Source: Methylococcus geothermalis (GTDB lineage Bacteria > Pseudomonadota > Gammaproteobacteria > Methylococcales > Methylococcaceae). From it: DNA of 64,000 nt. The notes below the pieces were generated by a model. That model had not been told where the DNA came from. It was given only the letters and a program-made list of their open reading frames with translations, and did no database searches. The stretch is taken from positions 2,618,501-2,682,500 of the forward strand of contig NZ_CP046565.1 in NCBI RefSeq assembly GCF_012769535.1, given 5' to 3'. A program made the translations under genes and the position numbers. Below, one piece after another: positions 21,332 to 50,933 of the stretch (its first letter is position 1; each line of letters begins with the position of its first letter).

Positions 21332-22498
21332 TCAAGCTGGAAGATTTAACAAGGCACGGTACACCGCCGCCGTGCGTCTCCCGATCTCGCGCCAGTCGTG
21401 TATCGCACGGACGTACGCCAGACCTTTCTCGGCGACGGCTTGCAGCAAAGCCTTTTCCTCCAAAACTGCATTCAAGCGTCGGGCCAAGTCTTTGGGGTCC
21501 TCGCGCCTGAACACCAACCCGTTTTCTCCGTCGCGCACGATCTCGGTCATGCCGGGTAAATCGGACACAAGTACCGGCTTGCCATAACTCATTGCCATCA
21601 ACACCACCCCGCTTTGATAAATGCGCCTATAAGGGAGCACCACCAAATCACAGGCCCCATAATAGAACGACACCTCTGCGTCCGGAATGTAGCGGATGTC
21701 ACGATGGCAGCGGTCGCCGATTCCCAGTTCCTCGATACGTCTGGCGTAAGCCGAAAAATCGGTCTTCCACGGCCGTCCAGCGATCACCAGGACGGCATCC
21801 GGATGCTTGCGAAGCACTTCAGGCATGGCCTCGATCAGTACATCCAATCCCTTCACCTGCTTGATCTGGCCAAAGAAGAGCAACACCTTTGCCGAACCTG
21901 GAAGTCCAAGCCGATGCCGCGCCTCCCCCATCGGAGGCAAGGGCTGGAGCATGTGCAGGTAATGACCGTGCGGGATCACCGCGATCTTGTCTGGCTTTAC
22001 CCCAAGCCGCGCCACGAGTTCATTCTGACTGACTCGATTGTGCGCAATGACCCCATCTGCCCAGCGATAGACCCTGCGGCTCAAACCGTGTGTCTCCAGG
22101 CCTTCCACGAATGACTCGACATCATGGGCAGTGACGACCACCCGACGAAACAGGCTACGCGCCAGCATAATCTGCATGGCCTGAAGTATGCCCACATGAA
22201 AGAAATGAAAATGAACCACCCTGCGCCGTTCCACAACGGCGGCACCGAGCGCCATCAAACTCCCCCAAATAAAGCGTACAGCCCGGCGCCAGACCTGATC
22301 CGGCCCGTAGATCCCTCGAAAAATCGGGTGCACCGAAAAAGCCGCTGCCTTTGGGATCGGTGTTTCATCGGAGGTATGGAGCACCACATCGACGCCCTCC
22401 TCAGCCAAACCGCCGCCGAGGCCGAAGTCGTAATAATCCATGCCACCATGACCTCCGACAGGCTCGATGATTGCAACCTTTATGTTCTTATCATTCAA
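21332..22498 (-). CDS. GT4 family glycosyltransferase
   Basis: 388 residues from a TTG at 22498 that overlaps the last codons of the sulfotransferase gene; GGGG about 9 bases upstream supports this start, and longer in-frame extension lies inside the neighbour. GT-B fold: N-terminal domain with EPVGGHGGMDYYD, C-terminal domain with FFGQIKQVKGLD, the acceptor loop VLPYRRIYQSGV and a GKPVLVSDLPGM stretch. It probably adds one sugar of the EPS repeat unit. The donor is unknown. Confidence 0.82.
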   Translation of the reverse strand: MNDKNIKVAIIEPVGGHGGMDYYDFGLGGGLAEEGVDVVLHTSDETPIPKAAAFSVHPIFRGIYGPDQVWRRAVRFIWGSLMALGAAVVERRRVVHFHFFHVGILQAMQIMLARSLFRRVVVTAHDVESFVEGLETHGLSRRVYRWADGVIAHNRVSQNELVARLGVKPDKIAVIPHGHYLHMLQPLPPMGEARHRLGLPGSAKVLLFFGQIKQVKGLDVLIEAMPEVLRKHPDAVLVIAGRPWKTDFSAYARRIEELGIGDRCHRDIRYIPDAEVSFYYGACDLVVLPYRRIYQSGVVLMAMSYGKPVLVSDLPGMTEIVRDGENGLVFRREDPKDLARRLNAVLEEKALLQAVAEKGLAYVRAIHDWREIGRRTAAVYRALLNLPA

Positions 22499-23492
22499 TG
22501 CGATACCCCACGGCCCGCATAGTCTCGTCGAATAAAGGACGCAATTCTGCAAGCATCTCAAACCCCGCCCGTCGCGGGGCAGAACGAAGTACCGTCTCTC
22601 CATAACGCAAAAAGACTTCGTCTTCTCCCCATTCGGCAAAAGTGGCGATTTCACGTAAGACTGCCCGCGGATTGACGACCAGATCCTCGTAGCGGACCAT
22701 GCGCATGCAATCTGGATTCTCTTTCAGGCACCGTAACCCCTCCCGCATGGTGACAACCCATTCCACTACTGCCATGTCCGTATCTCGTTGCAGTTGCCGA
22801 ATCGTATCCAAAGCACCCGCAAAAATAGGATCAGGTTCAATCAACTCTTTTAGCATCAGCTTCCACTTGCGTCGATCCACACCCCACCAGTCGTGATTCT
22901 CTCCTTGCACCCTCACTCCATAACGCGAAGACCATTGATCGATCGATGCACAAGTATCCCAGCCATTCCGCACCACAAATAGAAACCTTGCGTCTGGGAA
23001 GATCGCCTTCACAAACGGCACACGAAAGACCAACTCGGGATATTTATCTACGAGGCGTGCGGAACGCACGAAGCGAAGATACGCACCAAAAAGCCTGTGA
23101 GCATTCCTTTTCACCTCATCCGTTGCATCATCAACCCCCAGACGATAGCGGGCTTGTCCTCGGCTATAATTGCCTACCACGTCCTCATGGGGATGAATCG
23201 CGTGCCACAATGCCTTTGGCTCGTTGAGAAATCCAACTTCCCGATGCATGGAAAGCACAGTGCCCAATATCGTCGTACCACTCCGTCCGGTACCGAGGAT
23301 GAATAATGGCTCTCGAACTTCTTTTAATTGCGGAAGTTTCTTCTCCAGGAAAAAATGCGAAAAGACCAAAGGATTGATCCAGCGTCCACGGGTAGTTATA
23401 GGCCTTCCTTCAAATAGCACGTAACTAATCAAGCGAGCGATCACTTTCGCGGGACGCGCTTGCAAATATAAATGATCAAGCTGTGCAAGCAT
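22491..23492 (-). CDS. PAPS-dependent sulfotransferase family protein
   Basis: 333 residues. The 5'-phosphosulfate loop GTGRSGTT (67-74) and the 3'-phosphate region VVRNGWDTCAS (about 183-193) are the two PAPS-binding signatures of the Sulfotransfer family. The C-terminal MVRYEDLVVNP is also typical. It moves sulfate from PAPS onto a hydroxyl or amine, here most likely a sugar or glycolipid of the EPS pathway. It shares a transcript with the GT4 gene at 21332 (overlapping ends). PAPS could come from the cysC gene at 32053 and sulfate from cysTWA. Confidence 0.85.
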   Translation of the reverse strand: MLAQLDHLYLQARPAKVIARLISYVLFEGRPITTRGRWINPLVFSHFFLEKKLPQLKEVREPLFILGTGRSGTTILGTVLSMHREVGFLNEPKALWHAIHPHEDVVGNYSRGQARYRLGVDDATDEVKRNAHRLFGAYLRFVRSARLVDKYPELVFRVPFVKAIFPDARFLFVVRNGWDTCASIDQWSSRYGVRVQGENHDWWGVDRRKWKLMLKELIEPDPIFAGALDTIRQLQRDTDMAVVEWVVTMREGLRCLKENPDCMRMVRYEDLVVNPRAVLREIATFAEWGEDEVFLRYGETVLRSAPRRAGFEMLAELRPLFDETMRAVGYRIE

Positions 23493-32051: not shown

Positions 32052-32086
32052 ATCACCCCAGCCCCCTCCCAAAGGGAGATGGCGTG
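32052..32086. repeat. Short dispersed palindromic repeat at the cysC 3' end
   Basis: The sequence ccagccccctcccaaaggga and its flanks form a REP-like palindrome of the CCCTCxCCxxxGGGAGxGG type seen again at 34868-34920 and, weaker, at 32786-32813. It contributes the last codons of cysC. Confidence 0.6.
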
Positions 32087-32733
32087 CATATGACATTACT
32101 TTCAATTACATTGTGAACTGGATCAATAATCTTCCTGTTACGAAGGCATGCCAATACTGCATCCACGCTGTCATCCAAAGACATATCGCTGGTCTCAATG
32201 ACTACCTCAGGCTTATCTGGCTCTTCATACGGTGAGGAGATGCCAGTGAAGTCCTTGATCTCGCCGGCGCGGGCTTTTTTGTAAAGGCCTTTGACATCGC
32301 GCGATTCGCAAACTTCGATAGGGCAACGGCAATGGATTTCAATGAAGCCTTCGCCGTGGAGGCTGCGCACCCAATCTCGGTCAGCGCGATGAGGAGAGAT
32401 GAACGCAGTCAGGACGATGTTCCCGGCATCGGTGAACAGCTTTGCGACTTCGCCGATACGCCGGATGTTTTCATGGCGATCGGCGACGGAGAAGCCGAGG
32501 TCGCCGCACAGACCGTGGCGAACATTATCGCCGTCCAACACGTAGGTACGGCAGCCGAGTTGGTGCAGGGTTTCTTCCACAGCATGAGCAAGGGTGGACT
32601 TGCCTGCGCCGGATAAACCCGTGAACCAGAGCACTGCCGCTTTGTGGCCATTCATCCGCTCACGCCGGGCGCGGGTGACGGTGGCATGATGAAACACGAC
32701 GTTAGTTGACTGAAATTTTCCAATTGCCATCAT
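32053..32733 (-). CDS. cysC: Adenylylsulfate (APS) kinase
   Basis: 226 residues. Phosphorylates APS to PAPS, the sulfate donor for sulfotransferases and for assimilation. Walker [10 protein letters not shown] (39-47), DGDNVRHGL for APS binding, [13 protein letters not shown] and the [18 protein letters not shown] loop are all present. The normal enzyme ends near ACLRNRKII; here about 18 further residues follow, ending [11 protein letters not shown], encoded by a dispersed palindromic repeat, so the tail is probably non-native. No cysD/cysN lies next to it. Its place inside the EPS locus, with a sulfotransferase 9 kb away, suggests PAPS supply for glycan sulfation. Confidence 0.93.
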
Positions 32734-32846: not shown

Positions 32847-33515
32847 TCATTTAGTAGCTGAGCTGGCGGGCGCGAAAAAGAAGGGCGGAAAGGGAAAAGC
32901 TTGGATGGTAGGGTGATACCGCGGTCGGCCGAACCAGGAGGGTACGTTTTGCACGAACGGGTGAACTCGCTCAGCGGCCGGATGCGTCTTTGGCCGAGAC
33001 GGAGGTCTGTTGGTTGGAATCGTCGAAAGCATGGCGCCTTGCCGCGTGTTCAACACTTGAACATCAAGTCTAGCCGGCCGAAACGGGATGGCAAGGGGTC
33101 TTTGGAAAAAATTTTTCGGGGGGATGTGGGTGGGTTTTCGGGGTTGGATTGCGACCGTGATGGGTCGCGGCCGAGCCGTTCCCATGGGGTTTGCGGCGAG
33201 TTCGACGAAATCCAGCAGTTCTGGCCAATCTACGGCCTCGGGCAATTGTGCCCGATATTCGGGGCGAGTGAGACGGCGCGCCCTCTGAATCGCAGCCTGG
33301 GAGTCTTCTGCGATCAGGATGTGCAGCCGACGGTACAGAGTGTCATCGGGCCGGAACTGGATTTCGACGAAGACCCAGGGAGCGTCGCTGTCTTCCGGCG
33401 GGGCCAGCACGCCGTCACTGAAAAGCTTTTCCAGCCTGATCCCTCTCATAGCGGATACCGGTCGCCTTGGCCTGCCGCTCGCTGGGTCTGCTTGCATCCT
33501 CGCTGAAAACCACAT
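32847..33515 (-). pseudogene. Degenerate remnant resembling a DUF2887/Rpn-like protein
   Basis: In the first half of this frame, EKLFSDGVLAPPEDSDAPWV and FVEIQFRPDDTLYRRL resemble the PD-(D/E)XK-like DUF2887 proteins, and AEDSQAAIQRARRL resembles their C-terminal part, but the roughly 100 residues normally between are absent. The remaining 110 residues are Pro/Arg-rich with no recognisable pattern and are probably out of frame. The 5' end overlaps the nucleotidyltransferase gene. Best read as a decayed mobile-type gene. Confidence 0.4.
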
Positions 33516-33732
33516 CGACTTTTTGCTCGCCGATCCTCTGCTCCAGCCGGACCAGGAACTTGATTTTGTGGGTCAGGTCCTGATTCTGGCCAGCCTTGAT
33601 ATACCAATCGATATCCCCGCCTCTTTTATGGTCATCAGTACGGCTGCCGAAAAGAACGACCTCCACGTCGGCACCGAACACCTCTTGCGCGGTTTGCTTG
33701 ATGGCGCTGATTTCCGTCCGGCTAAGACGCAT
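33415..33732 (-). CDS. Small MNT-type nucleotidyltransferase domain protein
   Basis: 105 residues. The nucleotidyltransferase signature LFGSR-x8-GGDIDW (Gly29-Ser30, Asp40, Asp42) is intact, and KVDVVFSED supplies the third acidic strand. Small MNT proteins usually act as antitoxins with a HEPN partner. No HEPN gene is adjacent here, so it may be an orphan. A complete MNT/HEPN pair lies at 37579-38338. Confidence 0.7.
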   Translation of the reverse strand: MRLSRTEISAIKQTAQEVFGADVEVVLFGSRTDDHKRGGDIDWYIKAGQNQDLTHKIKFLVRLEQRIGEQKVDVVFSEDASRPSERQAKATGIRYERDQAGKAFQ

Positions 33733-33806
33733 GGCTTGAAGCTTCCGGAAGTAAGGTCATGTATTTGTTCTGGTTATTCCAGGCTACGGCCAACCATGCC
33801 GGCCCG

Positions 33807-34781
33807 TCATGCCCCCACTGACTCGGCCAGGAATGCCTTGTAGGTTTGTTCGAGGCCTTCGCGCAAGGGAATCCGGGCCCGCCATCCGCAGGCGGCCAGT
33901 CGTTCAACATTCAACAGCTTGCGCGGCGTCCCGTCGGGCCGAGTGGCATCGAACCGGATGCCTCCCGCAAAGCCGGTGATTTGCCGGATGAGTTCGGCCA
34001 GCTCCCGGATGGTGATGTCCTCGCCGGTGCCGACGTTGAGGTGGCTTTGCATGGGCTCCGTCGAAGCATCGTAGGTTGCCTTGTCGAGACTCATGATGTG
34101 GAGGCACGCCTCGGCCAGGTCGTCCACATGAAGGAATTCCCGCCGCGGGCTGCCGCTGCCCCAGATCACGACGTCTTGCGCCCCGCTTACCTTGGCTTCG
34201 TGGAAACGCCGCAGGAGCGCGGGGATGACGTGGCTGTTTTCCGGGTGGTAGTTGTCGCCGGGGCCGTAGAGATTGGTGGGCATGACGCTGCGGTAGTCGA
34301 TGCCGTGGCTACTGCCATACTGCCGGTTGTAGCTTTCGCACAGCTTGATGCCGGCGATCTTGGCGATGGCGTAGGGCTCGTTGGTCGGTTCGAGCGTGCC
34401 GGTGAGCAGTGCCTCCTCGCCCATCGGCTGCGGCGCGAGCTTGGGGTAGATGCAACTGGAGCCCAGAAACAGCAGCTTTTGCACGCCGGCGCGCCAGGCC
34501 TCGTGGATGAGGTTGGCCTCGATCATCAGGTTCTGGTGGATGAATTCCGCCGGATAGGTGTTGTTGGCGTGGATGCCGCCGACCTTGGCGGCGGCGACGT
34601 AAACCTGATCGGGCTTTTCGGCCCGGAAAAAGGCGCGGACGGCGGCCTGGTCCGTGAGGTCCAGCTCGGAGCGGGTGCGAGTCAGGATACCGCTGTGGCC
34701 GCGCCGCTGCAGCAACCGGACGATGGCGCTGCCGACCATGCCGCGGTGGCCGGCGACGTAGATGCGGGGGCTGGCTTCCAT
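33807..34781 (-). CDS. fcl: GDP-L-fucose synthase, copy 1
   Basis: 324 residues. Converts GDP-4-keto-6-deoxymannose to GDP-L-fucose. The NADP-binding [10 protein letters not shown] (11-20), the SSCIYP strand and the catalytic YAIAK are intact. The N-terminal two thirds are nearly identical to copy 2 (38335-39291), whereas the last 100 residues differ clearly, so this gene is a mosaic. It carries four extra residues (SSHGI versus T) near the middle. Its partner gmd copy just upstream is destroyed. Confidence 0.92.
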
Positions 34782-35760
34782 TCCGGCTTACTCGTGGTAG
34801 TCGTAGGCGGTGAAGCCGGCCATCTTGACGAGGGCATCGCGCTTGGCGGCGGTGTAGTCGCTCTGGACCATTCCCCCCCCTCTCCCCGACCCTCTCCCAC
34901 CAGGGGAGAGGGGAGAAAGCTATAGCCTTTTTCATCCACGCCCTGCCCTTCCCAGCGGATTTCCATACCCAGCTCGCGCGCGGCAGCGTTGACGAAATCG
35001 CGCACGCTGTATTGCTCGCCGGTGGCGATGACGAAGTCTTCAGGCTCAGCCTGCTGCAGCATGAGCCACTGCATCTCGACGTAGTCTTTGGCGTGCCCCC
35101 CAATCGCGTTTGGCATCGAGGTTGCCAAGGTACAGGCAGTCCTGAAGGCCCAGCGATGCGGGCGATGGCGCGGGTAATCTTGCGGGTGACGAAGGTCTCG
35201 CCCCGCACCGGGCTTTCGTGGTTGAACAGGATGCCGTTGCAGGCGTAGATGCCGTAGGCTTCGCGGTAATTGACCGTGATCCAGTAGGCATAGAGCTTGG
35301 CGACGGCATACGGGCTGCGCGGGTAGAACGGCGTGGTTTCCTTCTGGGGAATTTCCTGCACCAGACCGTAAAGCTCCGACGTGGATGCCTGGTAATAGCG
35401 GGTTTTCTTTTCCATGCCGAGGATGCGGATGGCTTCCAGGATGCGCAGGGCGCCGATGCCGTCCGCATTGGCGGTGTATTCCGGTTCCTCGAAGCTGACC
35501 GCGACGTGGGACTGGGCGGCCAGATTGTAGATTTCGTCCGGCTGGACCTTCTGGATGATGCGAACCAGGCTGGTGGAATCGGTCAGGTCGCCATGATGCA
35601 GGATGAAGCGGCGGTCCTTCACATGCGGGTCCTGGTAGAGATGATCGATGCGATCGGTGTTGAAGAGCGAAGTCCGACGCTTGATGCCATGGACTTCGTA
35701 GCCCTTGTTGAGCAGGAATTCGGCCAGGTAGGCGCCGTCTTGGCCGATGATGCCGGTGAT
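34391..35760 (-). repeat. Copy 1 of the duplicated fcl-gmd segment
   Basis: 34391-34872 matches 38901-39382 with two differences by eye, and 35155-35760 matches 39790-40395 with only about half a dozen. Between these blocks copy 1 is rearranged (net loss of 125 bases). The near-identity implies recent duplication or gene conversion. Confidence 0.85.
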
Positions 35761-35785
35761 CAGGGCGGCACGCCCTTTAGGTGTT
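34783..35785 (-). pseudogene. gmd: Destroyed GDP-mannose 4,6-dehydratase, copy 1
   Basis: The 5' end is missing: homology begins at [16 protein letters not shown] with no start codon, next to the four-helix gene. Compared with copy 2 there is a two-base loss near 35154, an extra C in the C-run near 35096-35101, and the region normally encoding about 55 residues (from the KDVKVKAGD part to the RELVKEM part) is replaced by a palindromic repeat (34868-34920). The catalytic STSELYG and YAVAK parts and the Trp lost in copy 2 (YAYWITVNY) are present here. No functional protein is possible. Confidence 0.9.
34868..34920. repeat. REP-like palindrome inserted in gmd copy 1
   Basis: ccctctcccaccaggggaga and flanks form a stem with CTCTCCC/GGGAGAG-type arms. 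In the gmd frame it reads [15 protein letters not shown], a widespread signature of such bacterial repeats. It sits exactly at the junction where gmd copy 1 loses identity with copy 2. Confidence 0.7.
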
Positions 35786-35798
35786 AGGGGTTAAGGTG

Positions 35799-36152
35799 TT
35801 AGGAGTCATGTTTGGCCTTGAGGTTCTTGCGCAGGTTGGTGAGCATGCCCGTAATTTGTTGGGCGGTCTTTACCCATGAGGCGCTGGTTTCTTTGGGGAT
35901 ATAGTCGATTTCCATGCCGATCCAGGTTTGGGTGGCGAATTCCGCGGCAGAGCCCGGGGGCGAGTCGAGAAAGCGCAGTTGGTCCTTGCCGGGTTCTTTT
36001 TCCATGCCCTCGGCGATGTTGCTGGGGATGGATAGCGCCGCGCGGGTGATTCTATCCTTGAAGCCATAGTCCTTCAGCTCCGCCGTTTGACGATAAACCT
36101 CCGCCGCCAGGCGCGCGCTGATTTTCCAAACCTCAAGCTTCTCGCACTTCAT
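35799..36152 (-). CDS. Four-helix bundle (S23/23S rRNA-IVS) protein
   Basis: 117 residues. MKCEKLEVWKISARLAAEVY and AALSIPSNIAEGMEKEPGKD are the characteristic first and second helices of this family of small proteins of unclear function, often found beside mobile or repeat DNA. The part LRFLDSPPGSAAEFATQTW deviates from the usual helix (normally FLYIARGSAAELxTQ), which may reflect two compensating frameshifts. The start overlap (ATGA, 36149-36152) couples it to the ATPase gene. Confidence 0.75.
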   Translation of the reverse strand: MKCEKLEVWKISARLAAEVYRQTAELKDYGFKDRITRAALSIPSNIAEGMEKEPGKDQLRFLDSPPGSAAEFATQTWIGMEIDYIPKETSASWVKTAQQITGMLTNLRKNLKAKHDS

Positions 36153-37315
36153 GGCACCTCATGTTCCAGAATGGCTTGTTCCGGCCGCAAACCCTTCAGA
36201 AACGCCTCGATGGGAATGCAGGAAATTTCCCCGATCTTGAGGCGATCCTTGCCCATGTAGAGCAGACAGGCCGAGGCCTCTGGGTAATCCTCGCGGAAGG
36301 CGTTGAGGGCACGCAGGTCTTTGCTGTGGATATGGACGGCACGCTTGACCTCGATGGCGTAGAAACTTTCCGGTCCGTAAATGACGAAATCGACTTCGCT
36401 GCCCGATTTGGTGCGCCAGTAGTAGAGCTGCTCACCCCGTCGCCGATAGCCGATCCAGGCTCGCAAGTGTTGTGCCACCAGCCCTTCCAGGGCCATGCCT
36501 TCGATCTCCTCAGCCCGATCCAACGGTCCGGCAGGGCGCAGGGAACGAAATACCCCGGCATCGAAGTAATAAAACTTGTCGTGGGCCACGAGATGACGTT
36601 TCGCCCGCCGGGTGAAGACCGGGACACGGAATGCCAGCAGCAGATCTTCGAGAATGCCGAGATAACCCTCTACGGTTTTACGCCCCACCTGACATTCCCG
36701 TGCGATTTCGGCGAGATTGAGCAACGTGCCATGGGAAAAACTGATGGCCTCCAGGAAGCGAGCGAATGCGCCGATGTCGCGCACCAGGGCCTCGGCCTGC
36801 ACTTCCTCGCGCAGGTACAAGGAGGCGTAGGCACGCAGGCTCGCGGTCGGGTCGGGGGCGTGCCAAATCAAAGGCACGAGACCGATTTCCAAAGCCCGGT
36901 GTAGGTTGAAATTGTCGCCCAGCTCTGCCGCCATGAACGGGTGCATGCTCGTTTCCACCAGGCGTCCGGCCAGCAGGTTGGCGCTGCCCCGCCGCAACTT
37001 GCGCGCGCTGGACCCCGTGAGGATGAAGCGGCGCGGGCGATCAGCTTCGATGAGCTCATGGACGACGTCCAACAGGGCAGGCGCCTTCTGGACTTCATCG
37101 ATCACCACCTCCCGCGCTTGAGGGTTCCCCGCGATCAGCTCGCGCAGTCTTTCCGGGCGCGCCTGGTAAAGCCGCTGAGCAGCCGGGTCGAGGAGGTCGA
37201 CACTCAGGGCGCCAGGAAATGCCATGCGCAACCAGGTGGACTTGCCGGTTCCCCGCGGCCCGAAGAGGAAGAAGCTAGCCGCTGGAGCCTCAAAAAAACG
37301 TCCCGCCGTCGCCAT
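36149..37315 (-). CDS. AAA_14/DUF4143 ATPase
   Basis: 388 residues. P-loop GPRGTGKST (about 19-27), Walker B VVIDEVQKAP, the sensor FILTGSSARKL, then a winged-helix region and a C-terminal DUF4143 domain with SEVDFVIYG...YAIEVKRA, a PD-(D/E)XK-like D-x-EVK pattern. These orphan ATPases are common in accessory DNA; their role is unknown. It forms a two-gene cassette with the four-helix gene, lying between the wrecked gmd copy 1 and an fcl fragment. Confidence 0.85.
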   Translation of the reverse strand: MATAGRFFEAPAASFFLFGPRGTGKSTWLRMAFPGALSVDLLDPAAQRLYQARPERLRELIAGNPQAREVVIDEVQKAPALLDVVHELIEADRPRRFILTGSSARKLRRGSANLLAGRLVETSMHPFMAAELGDNFNLHRALEIGLVPLIWHAPDPTASLRAYASLYLREEVQAEALVRDIGAFARFLEAISFSHGTLLNLAEIARECQVGRKTVEGYLGILEDLLLAFRVPVFTRRAKRHLVAHDKFYYFDAGVFRSLRPAGPLDRAEEIEGMALEGLVAQHLRAWIGYRRRGEQLYYWRTKSGSEVDFVIYGPESFYAIEVKRAVHIHSKDLRALNAFREDYPEASACLLYMGKDRLKIGEISCIPIEAFLKGLRPEQAILEHEVP

Positions 37316-37318
37316 TTA

Positions 37319-37337
37319 TGCTTCCAATTCGGAAGCA
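37319..37337. promoter_or_regulatory. Inverted repeat just upstream of the ATPase gene
   Basis: TGCTTCC, five bases, GGAAGCA: a perfect 7-bp inverted repeat at 37319-37337, starting three bases from the ATPase start codon. Its position suits an operator or a translation-control hairpin; unproven. Confidence 0.4.
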
Positions 37338-37381
37338 GAGGGGAAATTTTGCTGGAATTCTGGCCTCATCGCACCACCCAC

Positions 37382-37525
37382 CTAACACCTAACTCCTGAC
37401 ACCCTCTCCCCCTCAACAAAATCCGCATAGGTGCTGGCCAGCCCCTCTTCCAATGTCACCCGGGGTTGCCATCCGGTAGCCATGATGCGGCCCGTGTCGA
37501 GCAGTTTGCGGGGGGTGACGTTAAT
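37382..37525 (-). pseudogene. fcl: 3' fragment of a third fcl copy
   Basis: Encodes [20 protein letters not shown] and [12 protein letters not shown], nearly identical to the C-terminus of fcl copy 2 (38335). Upstream it is joined to MKCEKL, the start of a four-helix protein, so a four-helix gene 5' end has been fused to an fcl 3' end. It shows that the region once held another fcl gene. Confidence 0.8.
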
Positions 37526-37578
37526 TGCTGCGAGCCAATTGGCACGTTCTGCCAATTGTAATCTCAGCTTCTCGCACT

Positions 37579-37902
37579 TCATAACCGATAACCTTCAACC
37601 CTCGAATAAAACTCCTTCCCGACGCGTTGAATGTGGTCAAGCAACTGCGGGTTCTGGAGCGTTTCGAAGCGGCTGATGTCGAAGGTATAGGGCAGCAAGA
37701 GATCATCGAGACGGCTGCCGAGTTCGAGCAATTCCGTTTCGGTCAAGCCTTGGCCGAAGAGAACGAGATCGATGTCCGATCCGGGTTTGTAGGTACCTTT
37801 GGCGCGCGATCCGTAGATGACGGCGCGCTCGATGGACGGGTACTGCGCCAACACCGCGCGGATGCGCTCGATGGTTTTCTCGGGCAGGCCAAAGCGTTCC
37901 AT
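37579..37902 (-). CDS. mntA: MntA-type nucleotidyltransferase antitoxin
   Basis: 107 residues from MERFGLP, with a GGGGGG-type ribosome site upstream; the longer frame overlaps the HEPN gene and is rejected. The MNT signature is IYGSRAKG...[10 protein letters not shown] with Gly31-Ser32, Asp43 and Asp45. In known pairs this enzyme adds AMP units to a Tyr of the HEPN toxin and so blocks its RNase activity. It begins four bases after the HEPN stop, forming a tight operon. Confidence 0.8.
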
Positions 37903-37906
37903 GCGT

Positions 37907-38338
37907 TCACCCCCCTCGTTGCTGCAGGCCCTGCATGCGCTCTTCAAAGGCCGTGAACAATGGCAGGTAGCGCTCCACGATCAAGGCGGCCAAGGCGTTG
38001 GCCGTGTTTTCGTCGTAGGTGTGCGAGGAGCGGTTTCGGCTTTGGATGGTGTCCATCCAACCTTCGCCGTCTTCGAGCAACCCAGCGCGGAAGGCGGCAC
38101 GGATCGCGTCCCGGGAGCCGGTGATGCCTGGGTTGCCCTGATATTCGAAGTAATCCTTCATGACTTGCCAGGCGAGCTCCTGGGTGAATTCGAACGCCTG
38201 GATGAGGCCTTGTTGTTCCAGCCGGCTCAGGGGGCGTGTTTTGGCCAGGGCGACGGCCTCGGCCAATTGCTGCAAGGCCCGCCGGTAATTGGCGAAACGC
38301 TGTTGCCAGCGGATGTCGGGATGTTCGGTCTGACTCAT
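37907..38338 (-). CDS. hepT: HepT-type HEPN toxin (HI0074 family)
   Basis: 143 residues, all helical. The RNase motif R-x4-H is present as RNRSSH (101-106), followed by the Tyr of the R-x4-H-x-Y signature (Tyr108), the residue AMPylated by MntA in characterised pairs. [19 protein letters not shown] and [10 protein letters not shown] are typical of the HI0074 nucleotidyltransferase-partner family. The start overlaps the stop of fcl copy 2 by ATGA (38335-38338), so the pair is translationally coupled to a fucose-synthesis gene. Confidence 0.85.
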
Positions 38339-39291
38339 CGGTGATGCTCCAGAAAATCCGTGTAGGTGCTGGCTAGCCCCTCTTCCAAGGTGACCCGGGG
38401 TTGCCAGCCGGTGGCCATGATGCGGCCCGTGTCGAGCAGTTTGCGCGGGGTACCGTCGGGTTTGCCCGGGTCGAAGACGATTTCCCCGGTGTAACCCATG
38501 ACTTTGGCGATGAGCCCCGCCAGTTCCGCAATGGTGATGTCCTGCCCGCAGCCGACGTTGAGGTGGCTGCGCATGGGCGCGGTGTGTTGGGCATAGACCG
38601 AACGGGGCAGGTTCATCACGTGCAGGCAAGCGGCGGCGAGATCGTCCACGTGCAGGAATTCGCGGCGTGGAGTGCCGCTGCCCCAGATCACGACGTCTTG
38701 CGCCCCGCTTACCTTGGCTTCGTGGAAACGCCGCAGGAGCGCGGGGATGACGTGGCTGTTTTCCGGGTGGTAGTTGTCGCCGGGACCGTAGAGGTTGGTG
38801 GGCATGGCGCTGCGGTAGTCGGTGCCGTACTGGCGGTTGTAGGATTCGCAGAGCTTGATGCCGGCGATCTTGGCAATGGCGTAGGGTTCGTTAGTCGGCT
38901 CGAGCGTGCCGGTGAGCAGTGCCTCCTCGCCCATCGGCTGCGGCGCGAGCTTGGGGTAGATGCAACTGGAGCCCAGAAACAGCAGCTTTTGCACGCCGGC
39001 GCGCCAGGCCTCGTGGATGAGGTTGGCCTCGATCATCAGGTTCTGGTAGATGAATTCCGCCGGATAGGTGTTGTTGGCGTGGATGCCGCCGACCTTGGCG
39101 GCGGCGACGTAAACCTGATCGGGCTTTTCGGCCTGGAAAAAGGCGCGGACGGCGGCCTGGTCCGTGAGGTCCAGCTCGGAGCGGGTGCGAGTCAGGATAC
39201 CGCTGTGGCCGCGCCGCTGCAGCAACCGGACGATGGCGCTGCCGACCATGCCGCGGTGGCCGGCGACGTAGATGCGGGGGCTGGCTTCCAT
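38335..39291 (-). CDS. fcl: GDP-L-fucose synthase, copy 2
   Basis: 318 residues. All hallmarks are intact ([21 protein letters not shown]). Starts six bases after gmd copy 2 and overlaps hepT at its end. It is identical to copy 1 over most of the N-terminal part, then diverges (from about residue 225), sharing its 3' end with the fragment at 37382. Function as for copy 1; its substrate depends on a working Gmd, which this operon may lack. Confidence 0.92.
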
Positions 39292-40395
39292 TCCGGCTTA
39301 CTCGTGGTAGTCGTAGGCGGTGAAGCCGGCCATCTTGACGAGGGCATCGCGCTTGGCGGCGGTGTAGTCGCTCTGGACCATTTCCTTGACCAGTTCCCGC
39401 AGGCTGGTCTGTGGCGTCCAGCCGAGTTTCTCCCGTGCCTTGGTGGGATCGCCGAGCAGGGTTTCGACTTCGGTGGGACGGAAATAGCGGGGATCGACCC
39501 GGACGATGACATCGCCGGCCTTCACCTTGACGTCCTTGCTGGATACCGCGGCCACCCTGCCGGTTTCGTGTTCGCCCTCGCCTTCCCAGGCCAGGGAAAT
39601 CCCCAATTCTTCAGCAGCGAAGTCGACGAACTGGCGGACGCTGTATTGGACGCCGGTCGCGATCACGAAGTCGTCGGGCTGGTCCTGCTGGAGCATCAGC
39701 CATTGCATCACGACGTAGTCGCGGGCGTGGCCCCAGTCGCGCAAGGCGGACAGATTGCCGAGATAGAGGCAGTCCTGAAGGCCCAGCGCGATGCGGGCGA
39801 TGGCGCGGGTAATCTTGCGGGTGACGAAGGTCTCGCCCCGCACCGGGCTTTCGTGGTTGAACAGGATGCCGTTGCAGGCGTAGATGCCGTAGGCTTCGCG
39901 GTAATTGACGGTGATTCAGTAGGCATAGAGCTTGGCGACGGCATACGGGCTGCGCGGGTAGAACGGCGTGGTTTCCTTCTGGGGAATTTCCTGCACCAGA
40001 CCGTAAAGCTCCGACGTGGATGCCTGGTAATAGCGGGTTTTCTTTTCCATGCCGAGGATGCGGATGGCTTCCAGGATGCGCAGGGCGCCGATGCCGTCCG
40101 CATTGGCGGTGTATTCCGGTTCCTCGAAGCTGACCGCGACGTGGGACTGGGCGGCCAGATTGTAGATTTCGTCCGGCTGGACCTTCTGGATGATGCGAAC
40201 CAGGCTGGTGGAATCGGTCAGGTCGCCATGATGCAGGATGAAGCGGCGGTCCTTCACATGCGGGTCCTGGTAGAGATGATCGATGCGATCGGTGTTGAAG
40301 AGCGAAGTCCGGCGCTTGATGCCATGGACTTCGTAGCCCTTGTTGAGCAGGAATTCGGCCAGGTAGGCGCCGTCCTGGCCGGTGACGCCGGTGAT
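38901..40395 (-). repeat. Copy 2 of the duplicated fcl-gmd segment
   Basis: Same orientation partner of 34391-35760 (see that entry). Copy 2 keeps the full central part of gmd that copy 1 lost, so it represents the ancestral arrangement. Confidence 0.85.
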
Positions 40396-40416
40396 GAGAG
40401 CGATTTTTCGGGTCAT
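39298..40416 (-). pseudogene. gmd: GDP-mannose 4,6-dehydratase, copy 2, with in-frame TGA
   Basis: Full-length frame of 372 codons from [10 protein letters not shown], interrupted only by TGA at codon 167 (39916-39918). In copy 1 the same codon is TGG (Trp of YAYWITVNY), so a single G-to-A change explains the stop. Everything else is intact: [10 protein letters not shown] for NADP, STSELYG, the catalytic Tyr158 and Lys162 (YAVAK), and the C-terminal [18 protein letters not shown]. As written it gives a 166-residue product without the GDP-mannose half. A sequencing error or readthrough would restore the enzyme, which makes the intermediate for GDP-fucose. Confidence 0.85.
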
Positions 40417-40423
40417 GGATCGA

Positions 40424-40819
40424 TCACGGGGTTTGAATGGGTTTTTCACCGGTTGCGTTCGACTCCGCGGGAGTCGACAGTTCGATGTGCAGCGCGGCGA
40501 TCTCGGCGCGCAGCGCCTCGTATTCCGCCTCCTTGCGCGCCAGATAGGCGCGGGTGAGGCTGAGTTTCTGCTCGATACCTTGGGGGGTCAGCAAGTAGAG
40601 GTAGCCCAGCTTGTTGTCGCTGCGGCGGAAGTTGCCAGCCTTGACAAGCCCCTTCTCCAGCAGTGCCTTTAGGAGGTAGTTGGTCTTGCCCAAACTGATC
40701 CCGACCTGCTCGGAAAGCAGCCGCTGGCTGATGCTGGGGGATTCCGCAAGGATCTTGAGAATTCGAAGCTGGGCTTGTTCGCCGGGCGTCATCGGTGGGG
40801 GAAAACTTCGTTCAGGCAT
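40424..40819 (-). CDS. MarR-family EPS-associated transcriptional regulator
   Basis: 131 residues from MPERSF; MTPGEQ nine codons in is an alternative. The winged helix covers about residues 10-85, with [20 protein letters not shown] as the recognition part and [20 protein letters not shown] as the wing. A C-terminal coiled helix has [15 protein letters not shown]. This is the EPS-associated MarR type that commonly opens exopolysaccharide loci. It is the first gene of the minus-strand EPS block, 7 bases before gmd, and likely autoregulates it. Confidence 0.85.
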
Positions 40820-40917
40820 TGAACAGAGCTTAGCAGCCAATCCGGGTACGTCAACGTAAGGAGTGAACCCGCTTTTTCTGATTCAGCAAGAATCTTCTGC
40901 CGACCTCGAATACGCCG

Positions 40918-41313
40918 TCAGGGATACATGCCACCCCACACGGCCGGGTTCATGGTCCAGTCGAGCCTGAGCTCGGAGGCTTCGACCTGCCAGTCCGCCT
41001 GCCTCTTTTCCGCCGCGAGTTGGCGGAGACGATCCTGGGCCGCCTGGTCGCCGACGTAGACACAATCGCAGTGTTCGTTGTCGGCATAGAGATAGGTCAG
41101 AGTGTCTTTGACCCGGTGGGAGACCAACTGGCGCTGGGGAATCGCATCCAGATGGGCCTGTTGTTGAGGCGATTGGGCGTAGAAAATCTGAAACCCCGCG
41201 GCGGCCAGCAACTCTTCCACGGTCTCGATTTTTTCGTTCGATGCCGCGCAACCGACGAGCGCCAGTGCCTGAAACGGAAAAATCGAAAGCAACCCCCACT
41301 TTGGAATACGCAT
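40918..41313 (-). CDS. Small lipoprotein of unknown function
   Basis: 131 residues. The signal peptide ends in the lipobox LVGC (Cys22). The mature part is mixed helix/strand with two adjacent Cys (EHCDCVYVGD) and an aromatic C-terminus (WTMNPAVWGGMYP). I do not recognise the family. It is separated from the regulator by about 100 bases and ends two bases after the Uma2 gene start region, so the two may share a transcript. Confidence 0.65.
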   Translation of the reverse strand: MRIPKWGLLSIFPFQALALVGCAASNEKIETVEELLAAAGFQIFYAQSPQQQAHLDAIPQRQLVSHRVKDTLTYLYADNEHCDCVYVGDQAAQDRLRQLAAEKRQADWQVEASELRLDWTMNPAVWGGMYP

Positions 41314-41314
41314 C

Positions 41315-41884
41315 TCAGGTCCACAGCTCCGCGAGAGAAAAAGTCACCGCATCGAAAGGCGCCAAACAGATCGGGTCGTCGTCCTTGTAGGTGCCGAGCA
41401 ACAGCCATGAACCGTCGTGCAGCTCGAATCCTTCGAGGGTGCGCGCCTGCGGATCGACCAGCCAGGCATGGGCCACGCCGCGGCGGGCGTACAGCGGCAG
41501 CTTGATGGCGCGGTCCTTTTTCGCCGTGTTGGGCGAGAGGATTTCGCAGACCCAGTCGGGCACCACTTCGAAACGGTGATCCTCGGGCACCGCGGGCATG
41601 CGTTCACGGCGCCAGCCGGCAAGGTCGGGCACGACGACTTCGACGTCGCGGACGAAGTGTAGTTCGGGTTCCGGCAAAATCCACCAGCCGCCGGGGCCGC
41701 CCCGGCCTTTTCCGAAAGCCCCGCCCAGTTCAAGGGAAAGACCGATGGCGGCCAGCGCATGCGGCCCGGCCGGCCGCGGCCGGGTGTCAAGCTCGCCGTC
41801 GACGATCTCGCCGACCAAATTGTCGGGCAGAGCCATCAGGCGCTCATACGGCGTCGGTGCGGCAACGGCTTGTGCGTGTCCCAT
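41315..41884 (-). CDS. Uma2-family (DUF820) restriction-endonuclease-fold protein
   Basis: 189 residues. The family pattern is visible: YERLMALPDNLVGEIVDGEL at the N-terminus, VVVPDLAGWR, then VPDWVCEILSPNTAKKDRAIK and YARRGVAHAWLVDPQARTLE, with the PD...E-x-LS...K catalytic arrangement of PD-(D/E)XK nucleases. Its biological role is not established. It is on the minus strand, divergent from the Ehr operon across a 249-base gap that should hold both promoters. Confidence 0.85.
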   Translation of the reverse strand: MGHAQAVAAPTPYERLMALPDNLVGEIVDGELDTRPRPAGPHALAAIGLSLELGGAFGKGRGGPGGWWILPEPELHFVRDVEVVVPDLAGWRRERMPAVPEDHRFEVVPDWVCEILSPNTAKKDRAIKLPLYARRGVAHAWLVDPQARTLEGFELHDGSWLLLGTYKDDDPICLAPFDAVTFSLAELWT

Positions 41885-49941: not shown

Positions 49942-50144
49942 CTCCACCTGGCGGAAAAAACATGAGGTTAGGGAAAGTCTGGTCGAATCCCGCGCCGTTT
50001 GTTGGGGGAAATCCACCCTCGCCGCTTGGGGATTCGAGCCGGCCGGCGTGGCGGGTCCCGCGCTTGGGGCTCTTGTCTGCGATGCCGTCATCACGCAACA
50101 TTCCGGGACGGATCTTCCTGCCAGTTGACTCAATAAGGAGAAGC

Positions 50145-50933
50145 ATGGGCGAGAGCGACCGGAATATTCACGGCGTGCTGTTCGACCTGGACGGGGTGCT
50201 TTATGTGGATTCGCAGCCCATCCGGGGCGCCGTGGAGGCCGTCGCCCGGATCAAGGCCGGCGGCAGGCTCTGCCGTTTCGTCACCAACACCAGCACGCAA
50301 TCCCTGGCCACGTTGGAACGGAAACTCAGGACGCTCGGTTTTCCGGTGGAACAAGGCGAAATCATCAGCGCTCCCCAAGCCGCGCTGCGCTACTTGCGGA
50401 CAACGGGACTGCGGGCCCATCTCCTGCTGGAGGACGACGTCGCGGCCGATTTCGCCGGCATCCCCCAGGCGCCCCTGGAGGATGCCGATGCCCTGGTGCT
50501 GGGAGATACCCGCGTTGTCTGGACTCACGACTGCCTCGACCGAATGTTCAACGCGATCATGCGGGGGGCGCGCCTGATCGCCGTGCACAAGAACCGCTTC
50601 TGGCAAACCGAGGGGGGATTGCGCATGGACATCGGCGGCCTGGTGGCCGCGCTCGAATACTGCGCCGGCGTTCGGGCATTGGTCATGGGCAAACCGTCGG
50701 CGGATTTTTTCGATGTCGCCCTCCGGGACATGGAGCTGCCGCCCGAGCAAGCCGCCATCGTCGGAGACGATATCGAGGCGGATATCGGCGGAGGCCAGTC
50801 CGCGGGACTTCTCGGCATATTGGTCAGAACCGGAAAATTCCGGCCTTCGCATCTGGAAACCAGCCCCGTGCGGCCCGACCGGCTCATCGACTCCGTGGCC
50901 GATCTGCCGGGCCTTCTGGATAGGTTCCGGTAA
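50145..50933 (+). CDS. HAD-superfamily IIA hydrolase (LHPP/NagD-like)
   Basis: 262 residues; the start at 50145 has a clear AAGGAG site. Motif I FDLDGVLYV (Asp14 nucleophile, Asp16), motif II Thr in FVTNTST, and motif IV IVGDDIEADIGGG with the Lys in MGKPSADFF. The cap arrangement fits HAD-IIA phosphatases such as LHPP and NagD, which act on small phosphate esters or phosphohistidine. The substrate is not predictable from sequence. Confidence 0.87.
   Translation: MGESDRNIHGVLFDLDGVLYVDSQPIRGAVEAVARIKAGGRLCRFVTNTSTQSLATLERKLRTLGFPVEQGEIISAPQAALRYLRTTGLRAHLLLEDDVAADFAGIPQAPLEDADALVLGDTRVVWTHDCLDRMFNAIMRGARLIAVHKNRFWQTEGGLRMDIGGLVAALEYCAGVRALVMGKPSADFFDVALRDMELPPEQAAIVGDDIEADIGGGQSAGLLGILVRTGKFRPSHLETSPVRPDRLIDSVADLPGLLDRFR

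Follow-up and report, generated by a model that had tools for sequence, protein, structure and literature searches.

Does Methylococcus geothermalis still make GDP-fucose? The question is raised by a 64,000-nucleotide stretch of its genome (contig NZ_CP046565.1, positions 2,618,501 to 2,682,500; the whole stretch is called the window here, and coordinates are counted from its first letter), within which gmd, the gene for GDP-mannose 4,6-dehydratase, and fcl, the gene for the next enzyme, both occur twice. An earlier note, made from the sequence alone, described a duplicated gmd-fcl segment with both copies of gmd broken, and it saw three ways in which GDP-fucose might nonetheless be produced: by readthrough of a stop codon, by means of another gmd, or because the stop is an error in a near-identical repeat. 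The two copies are indeed present, but they are a mosaic of native and non-native sequence, something the note had missed, and in place of a duplicated segment one should probably speak of a native locus into which a non-native gmd-fcl cassette was inserted, with tracts of gene conversion. An uninterrupted gmd frame is found in neither copy, copy 2 being broken by one TGA and copy 1 in multiple places. Judged from the genome, the GDP-fucose branch is likely to have been lost recently, with no working gmd to serve the two fcl genes, which are still intact.

Genomes and Comparison Sequences

The genome consists of 3,371,031 bases in one contig, with two pmoA loci; M. geothermalis IM1 has been described as having two particulate methane monooxygenase (pMMO) operons and 3.4 Mb of DNA (PMC8527097). 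The gene for a MarR-type regulator, both copies of gmd and fcl, and the genes between the copies all lie on the minus strand. The locus was compared with 85 others, made up of the best 80 of at least 590 stretches plus five stretches from the genus. These were picked by likeness to gmd copy 2, so a search for a donor among them is biased. Scores were judged against cut-offs of 415 bits for gmd (TIGR01472) and 500 bits for fcl (NF047922). Identities by block refer to 60-column alignment blocks, the quoted ranges being those of full blocks. The trees of the gmd 5' tract and of the gmd middle have 86 rows each; the fcl trees use 68 of 72 homologues, and that of the C-terminus has 70 rows.

Interruptions in Both Copies of gmd

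Copy 2 is the native gmd (39298–40416). Its frame runs from the ATG at 40416 to 39298, 372 codons plus a stop, and has a single break, the TGA at 39918–39916, which is codon 167 and lies five codons past Lys162 of the YxxxK motif (as aligned to the solved structure 1db3). The same codon is TGG in copy 1, and on both points the earlier note had read the sequence correctly. Read through the TGA, copy 2 passes the full-length model cut-off with 598 bits, stays near its genus orthologues over the whole length, and matches 1db3 over residues 4–366 of 372, the segment around the stop being nearly identical to that protein. Position 167 is tryptophan, encoded by TGG, in all 84 aligned homologues (84 of the 85 loci aligned at threshold, the one omitted being a genus stretch, from G002, with a gmd relic), and an in-frame stop occurs in none of the 84. 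The active-site motifs Tyr-xxx-Lys and Thr-Ser-Glu are found in the part that precedes the stop, and each can be aligned to 1db3. The predicted product has 166 residues, 206 of the 372 being missing.

Copy 1 lies downstream of copy 2, about 4.5–4.6 kb away. Its 5' tract (35154–35739) has no start codon, the earliest in-frame ATG, GTG or TTG being the GTG at 35622. There follows a non-native middle (34923–35153), with a 2-base deletion at its upstream edge (35154/35153) and a 1-base insertion near 35098; these are the two frameshifts that had been claimed along with the missing start. Beyond the middle, about 50 low-complexity bases (34873–34922) stand in the place of 174 bases of copy 2 (39556–39383). 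That a repeat replaces a block of gmd was rightly seen; the loss comes to about 58 codons here, close to the 55 given before. The core pattern of the repeat has 7 matches in the genome (2 mismatches or fewer, itself counted) compared with 1 for a reversed control. The pieces of copy 1 score 391, 67 and 22 bits, all below the cut-off of 415.

Rescue by another gmd, for which the earlier note proposed a search, is very unlikely. The best score with the gmd model outside the two loci is 65 bits, as against 415, in this one-contig genome. With a broader Pfam model there are 13 matches, the two fcl genes among them, and the strongest of the others (299 bits) is the same gene as the 65-bit match. 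A gene for GDP-mannose pyrophosphorylase is present in the genome, and both fcl genes are open frames, as had been said of them, scoring 521 bits (copy 1) and 527 bits (copy 2) against the curated cut-off of 500. Since there is no working gmd in the assembled sequence and no third match at gmd level, both fcl genes would be left without substrate.

The codon changes private to copy 2 suggest that this loss is recent. Counted only at sites where three relatives agree, they number 12 synonymous, 3 missense and 1 nonsense, and the ratio of synonymous to missense changes is 6:1 before the stop and 6:2 after it. The same count applied to the relatives' own changes gives 34:5, 13:3 and 19:2, a resemblance suggesting that gmd copy 2 was constrained until recently. 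The stop and a second, synonymous change private to copy 2, at 39910, are 6 bases apart (two random sites in the 586-bp tract that contains them would have about a 2% chance of lying so close), and three further private changes fall within 19 bases in fcl (38893–38875). Clustering of this kind suggests that the changes arose in single mutational events or as tiny patches, but local errors could also produce it.

Mosaic Structure of the Copies

The earlier note had reported two blocks, of about 600 and 480 bp, nearly identical between the copies, and the alignment bears this out. The first (35739–35154 against 40374–39789) measures 586 bp with 3 substitutions. The second (34872–34390 against 39382–38900), which takes in the 3' end of gmd and the 5' part of fcl copy 1, measures 483 bp with 2 substitutions. 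Chance is excluded for both main pairs of copies (blastn E = 0.0). By blocks, the near-identical parts are at 96–100% identity, whereas the middle of gmd and the 3' end of fcl are at 50–81%, an alternation that argues for a mosaic and not for an evenly degraded duplicate. Tracts of near-identity between copies with diverged sequence at their borders constitute a signature of gene conversion.

What is native may be judged from three genus relatives (G001, G003 and G004), each of which has a single MarR-gmd-fcl locus, 85–90% identical in DNA to the window, with one gmd and one fcl over the cut-off, free of stops and adjoining the MarR gene. In the window the native position upstream of gmd copy 2 is held by a gene for a MarR-type exopolysaccharide (EPS)-associated regulator (40427–40840; TIGR04176, 142 bits against a cut-off of 88), whose protein is 81–85% identical to those beside gmd in the three relatives. 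Compared with their sequences, gmd copy 2 is native throughout. Copy 1 of gmd is native-like over 35739–35154, drops to 68–81% over 35153–34923 (three full blocks), and is native-like again from 34872. The trees agree: in the 5' tract copy 1 and copy 2 are each other's closest relatives (0.991) and fall within the genus clade (1.0), and in the middle the four genus sequences form a clade that excludes copy 1 (0.988). Among the six genomes searched in the genus, gmd scores above the cut-off in five (this genome counted, with its stop) and fcl in four, the two without it being G002 and G005, of which the latter is 87% complete. G002 also holds a decayed, interrupted gmd relic (L116:8519–10031), with a diverged gmd that is still open lying about 11 kb away.

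The fcl genes change character at a shared point. The 5' part of fcl copy 2 (38673–39291) is native, its residues 1–150 clustering with fcl copy 1 (0.931) inside the genus clade (0.951). From about 38673 on, the 3' part (38335–38672) is non-native, being 60–73% identical to the genus orthologues and 55–73% to copy 1 over five full blocks, though the gene remains intact. The 3' part of fcl copy 1 (33807–34150), also an intact gene, is native, at 80–98% identity to the genus orthologues over five full blocks. In the tree of the C-terminus, fcl copy 1 falls in the genus clade (0.997) and fcl copy 2 with Paraburkholderia and Accumulibacter (0.938). The change is reciprocal across a 112-bp block of exact identity (34151–34262 in copy 1, 38784–38673 in copy 2), the likely site of a crossover: on the same far side of it, fcl copy 2 leaves native sequence and fcl copy 1 becomes native. 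On the near side, fcl copy 1 has a possible non-native patch (34263–34389) with a 12-base in-frame insertion. The patch differs from copy 2 by 12 substitutions (7 of them private to copy 1 and 3 to copy 2, with 2 mixed among the relatives), and its assignment is weak, the identity being 88–96% over 71–95 bp to several other proteobacterial loci and 90–92% to two loci of the genus.

A Proposed History of the Locus

The history that I favor, as probable though by no means assured, begins with the native MarR-gmd-fcl locus receiving a gmd-fcl cassette from another proteobacterium through one homologous crossover inside fcl. The cassette would also have brought a HEPN-like/MNT pair, a DUF4143 ATPase gene and a four-helix-bundle gene, and the result would have been native gmd, fcl with a native 5' and a foreign 3' part, the insert, foreign gmd, and fcl with a foreign 5' and a native 3' part. 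Gene conversion would then have replaced two stretches of copy 1 with native sequence from copy 2; meanwhile gmd copy 1 would have lost its start, gained two frameshifts and had about 58 codons replaced by the repeat. In the most recent step the last intact gmd, copy 2, would have gained the TGA at Trp167; if conversion did run from copy 2 to copy 1, the TGG kept in copy 1 implies that the stop is younger than the conversion. Neither GDP-4-keto-6-deoxymannose nor GDP-fucose would now be made, apart from possible traces by UGA readthrough. The reciprocal change in fcl, taken together with the unrelated genes between the copies, fits a single crossover with a foreign cassette.

Several observations weigh against this history. 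The foreign 5' part expected in fcl copy 1 survives at most as the weak patch, so that the history has to include a later conversion from copy 2. The nearest relatives differ from one non-native part to the other, and all of them are distant. The middle of gmd copy 1 has its best DNA match among the 85 loci in the gmd of a Thiobacillus metagenome-assembled genome (MAG), 83% over 216 bp, and its neighbor in the tree is a gammaproteobacterial MAG (0.754), while the fcl end groups with betaproteobacteria. By DNA, moreover, the best match of the 3' end of fcl copy 2 among these loci is a genus relative (75% over 256 bp), with Accumulibacter next (73%), so that the fcl end may be an old diverged paralogue; the source of the non-native sequence can be given at best as another proteobacterium. 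A search of 300 other genomes of the order, in which two candidates were scored for each, did not turn up the donor of the cassette: some match was present in 65 of 301 genomes (the present one counted), the longest one outside this genome covering 319 of 1131 bp. No plasmid record has 80% of a 3801-bp query, although 412 records match part of it. The 15 plasmids among the matches listed cover 28–31% at 71.5–77.0% identity, and 9 of them bear an annotated gmd and/or fcl; three records outside these 15 match at 80–90% identity. No integrase or replication family was hit by the insert genes scanned against Pfam. Finally, the TGA itself could be an error.

Alternative Explanations

The TGA could have arisen as an error of sequencing or assembly, or by a mutation confined to the sequenced culture. 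In that case gmd copy 2 works in the species and the cell makes GDP-fucose; copy 1 alone is a pseudogene, and the mosaic is no less real. I regard this as rather unlikely but as deserving serious weight. One lethal change in a gene that is otherwise under constraint is what an error would look like, the more so as it sits in a near-identical repeat with another difference 6 bases off, the coincidence of about 2% noted above. On the other hand, a real multi-base mutation or a short conversion patch would typically also leave two substitutions close together. TGG is read in copy 1 and the relatives alike, and it stands to reason that reads mis-assigned from copy 1 would hide a TGA, not create one. 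Furthermore, the genome is one contig, and two substitutions within one read length separate copy 2 from copy 1. Of eleven neighboring open reading frames compared with the relatives, ten align without stops. The test is weak, since being an open frame in the window was what qualified a gene for it, and the lack of stops follows partly by construction; the eleventh (50133–50852) meets a stop in a relative at 68% identity, is possibly in the wrong frame, and was left uncounted. Alternatively, the TGA might be real and yet read through often enough to give useful amounts of Gmd, copy 2 then being a functional gene of low output. UGA is the leakiest of the stop codons, and the gmd frame past the stop still looks constrained. 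Recent loss accounts for that constraint equally well, however, and nothing positive speaks for recoding: no Rfam family reaches its gathering score in 33000–41400, tryptophan is the ordinary residue at position 167, and none of the 84 aligned homologues carries a stop. The readthrough raised by the earlier note is accordingly an improbable way out.

A different route to the same mosaic, compatible with any of these accounts of the TGA, would start with the native gmd-fcl genes simply being duplicated in tandem, the non-native blocks coming in later through separate small imports. This order of events has something to recommend it, in that most of fcl copy 1 and the 5' part of gmd copy 1 are native-like and that the nearest relatives of the two non-native parts are not the same. 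But it needs several imports, it does not by itself produce a reciprocal change at one site in fcl, and it leaves unexplained the genes between the copies, which tblastn does not find in the 20-kb loci of the three genus relatives, except for weak relatives of another MNT gene. I consider it doubtful. Least probable of all, and hardly to be expected, is that the copies form a reversible pair with a silent cassette, in which back-conversion of the 586-bp tract bearing the sense codon would toggle the production of GDP-fucose within a population.

Comparison with Known Systems

Taken separately, the parts and processes called upon in the favored history, that of an acquired cassette followed by conversion and decay, are ordinary, and so is the kind of gene decay, unless the stop is a sequencing error. 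The gmd of copy 2, read through, is like the family and its solved structure in length and score; it departs from them in stopping after 166 of 372 residues, and copy 1 departs from them in being a fragmentary mosaic. Both fcl genes resemble their family in being open and above its cut-off, but fcl copy 2 is a native/non-native hybrid, fcl copy 1 is possibly patched, and neither has a working gmd as partner. Pseudogenes that arise in polysaccharide loci by transfer, recombination and conversion offer the same ingredients (mosaic copies, a lost start, frameshifts, a nonsense change). What sets the present case apart is that one step has lost both its copies, whereas the next enzyme is still encoded by two intact genes. 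The putative host/donor and donor/host hybrids at the ends, with extra genes between, recall single-crossover integration of the Campbell type, although here no replicon, integrase or donor was found and the hybrids have been further altered.

The locus offers a well-resolved example of the loss of a nucleotide-sugar pathway in an environmental methane oxidizer, in which a non-native homologue would have arrived, the native copy partly overwritten it, and the last working copy been lost, with the next enzyme still present in two copies. A gene list with two good fcl genes could mislead one into crediting the strain with fucose synthesis. If the stop is instead an error, the analysis marks a wrong spot in a finished genome. 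No paper was found that pairs Methylococcus with "GDP-mannose 4", and among the papers listed for related terms the titles and the openings of abstracts contain nothing about the gmd-fcl locus.

Genes between and around the Copies

The insert holds, in the order of transcription, a gene for a HEPN-like nucleotidyltransferase substrate-binding protein of the HI0074 family (37910–38338; TIGR01987, PF08780), an adjoining gene for an MNT-type nucleotidyltransferase (37582–37947; PF18765 and PF01909, but below the MntA cut-off with 37 against 60 bits), an AAA_14/DUF4143 ATPase gene (36152–37315; PF13173, PF13635), and, just upstream of gmd copy 1, a gene for a four-helix-bundle protein of the 23S rRNA intervening sequence (IVS) type (35802–36152; TIGR02436, PF05635). 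There is also an extra fragment of the non-native 3' end of fcl (37418–37516), 91.9% identical over 99 bp to 38451–38353. The whole set of insert genes occurs in none of the 85 loci (tblastn, E 1e-6), the HEPN, MNT and four-helix-bundle genes each being found in 2 and the DUF4143 gene in 0. A proteobacterial MAG (L067:3670–13716) has several HEPN/MNT-like genes around its own gmd-fcl genes. A mobile-element origin for the insert was considered and set aside on the Pfam scan described above.

Short repeats of the CCTAACACC type, in opposite orientation (35777–35803 and 37381–37392), flank the DUF4143 and four-helix-bundle genes. The pattern of the longer CCTAACACC-type array has three matches genome-wide, at two sites, both of them here. 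The first 17 bases of the four-helix-bundle gene (36136–36152) are repeated after the MNT gene (37566–37582), where they are perhaps a relic of an earlier gene order.

Following fcl copy 1 is a small MNT-like nucleotidyltransferase gene (33418–33732), a distant relative of which (39%) lies near the same place in G004. The polysaccharide cluster also contains a sulfotransferase-like gene (22494–23492) and an APS-kinase gene (32056–32733), hinting at a sulfated polysaccharide.

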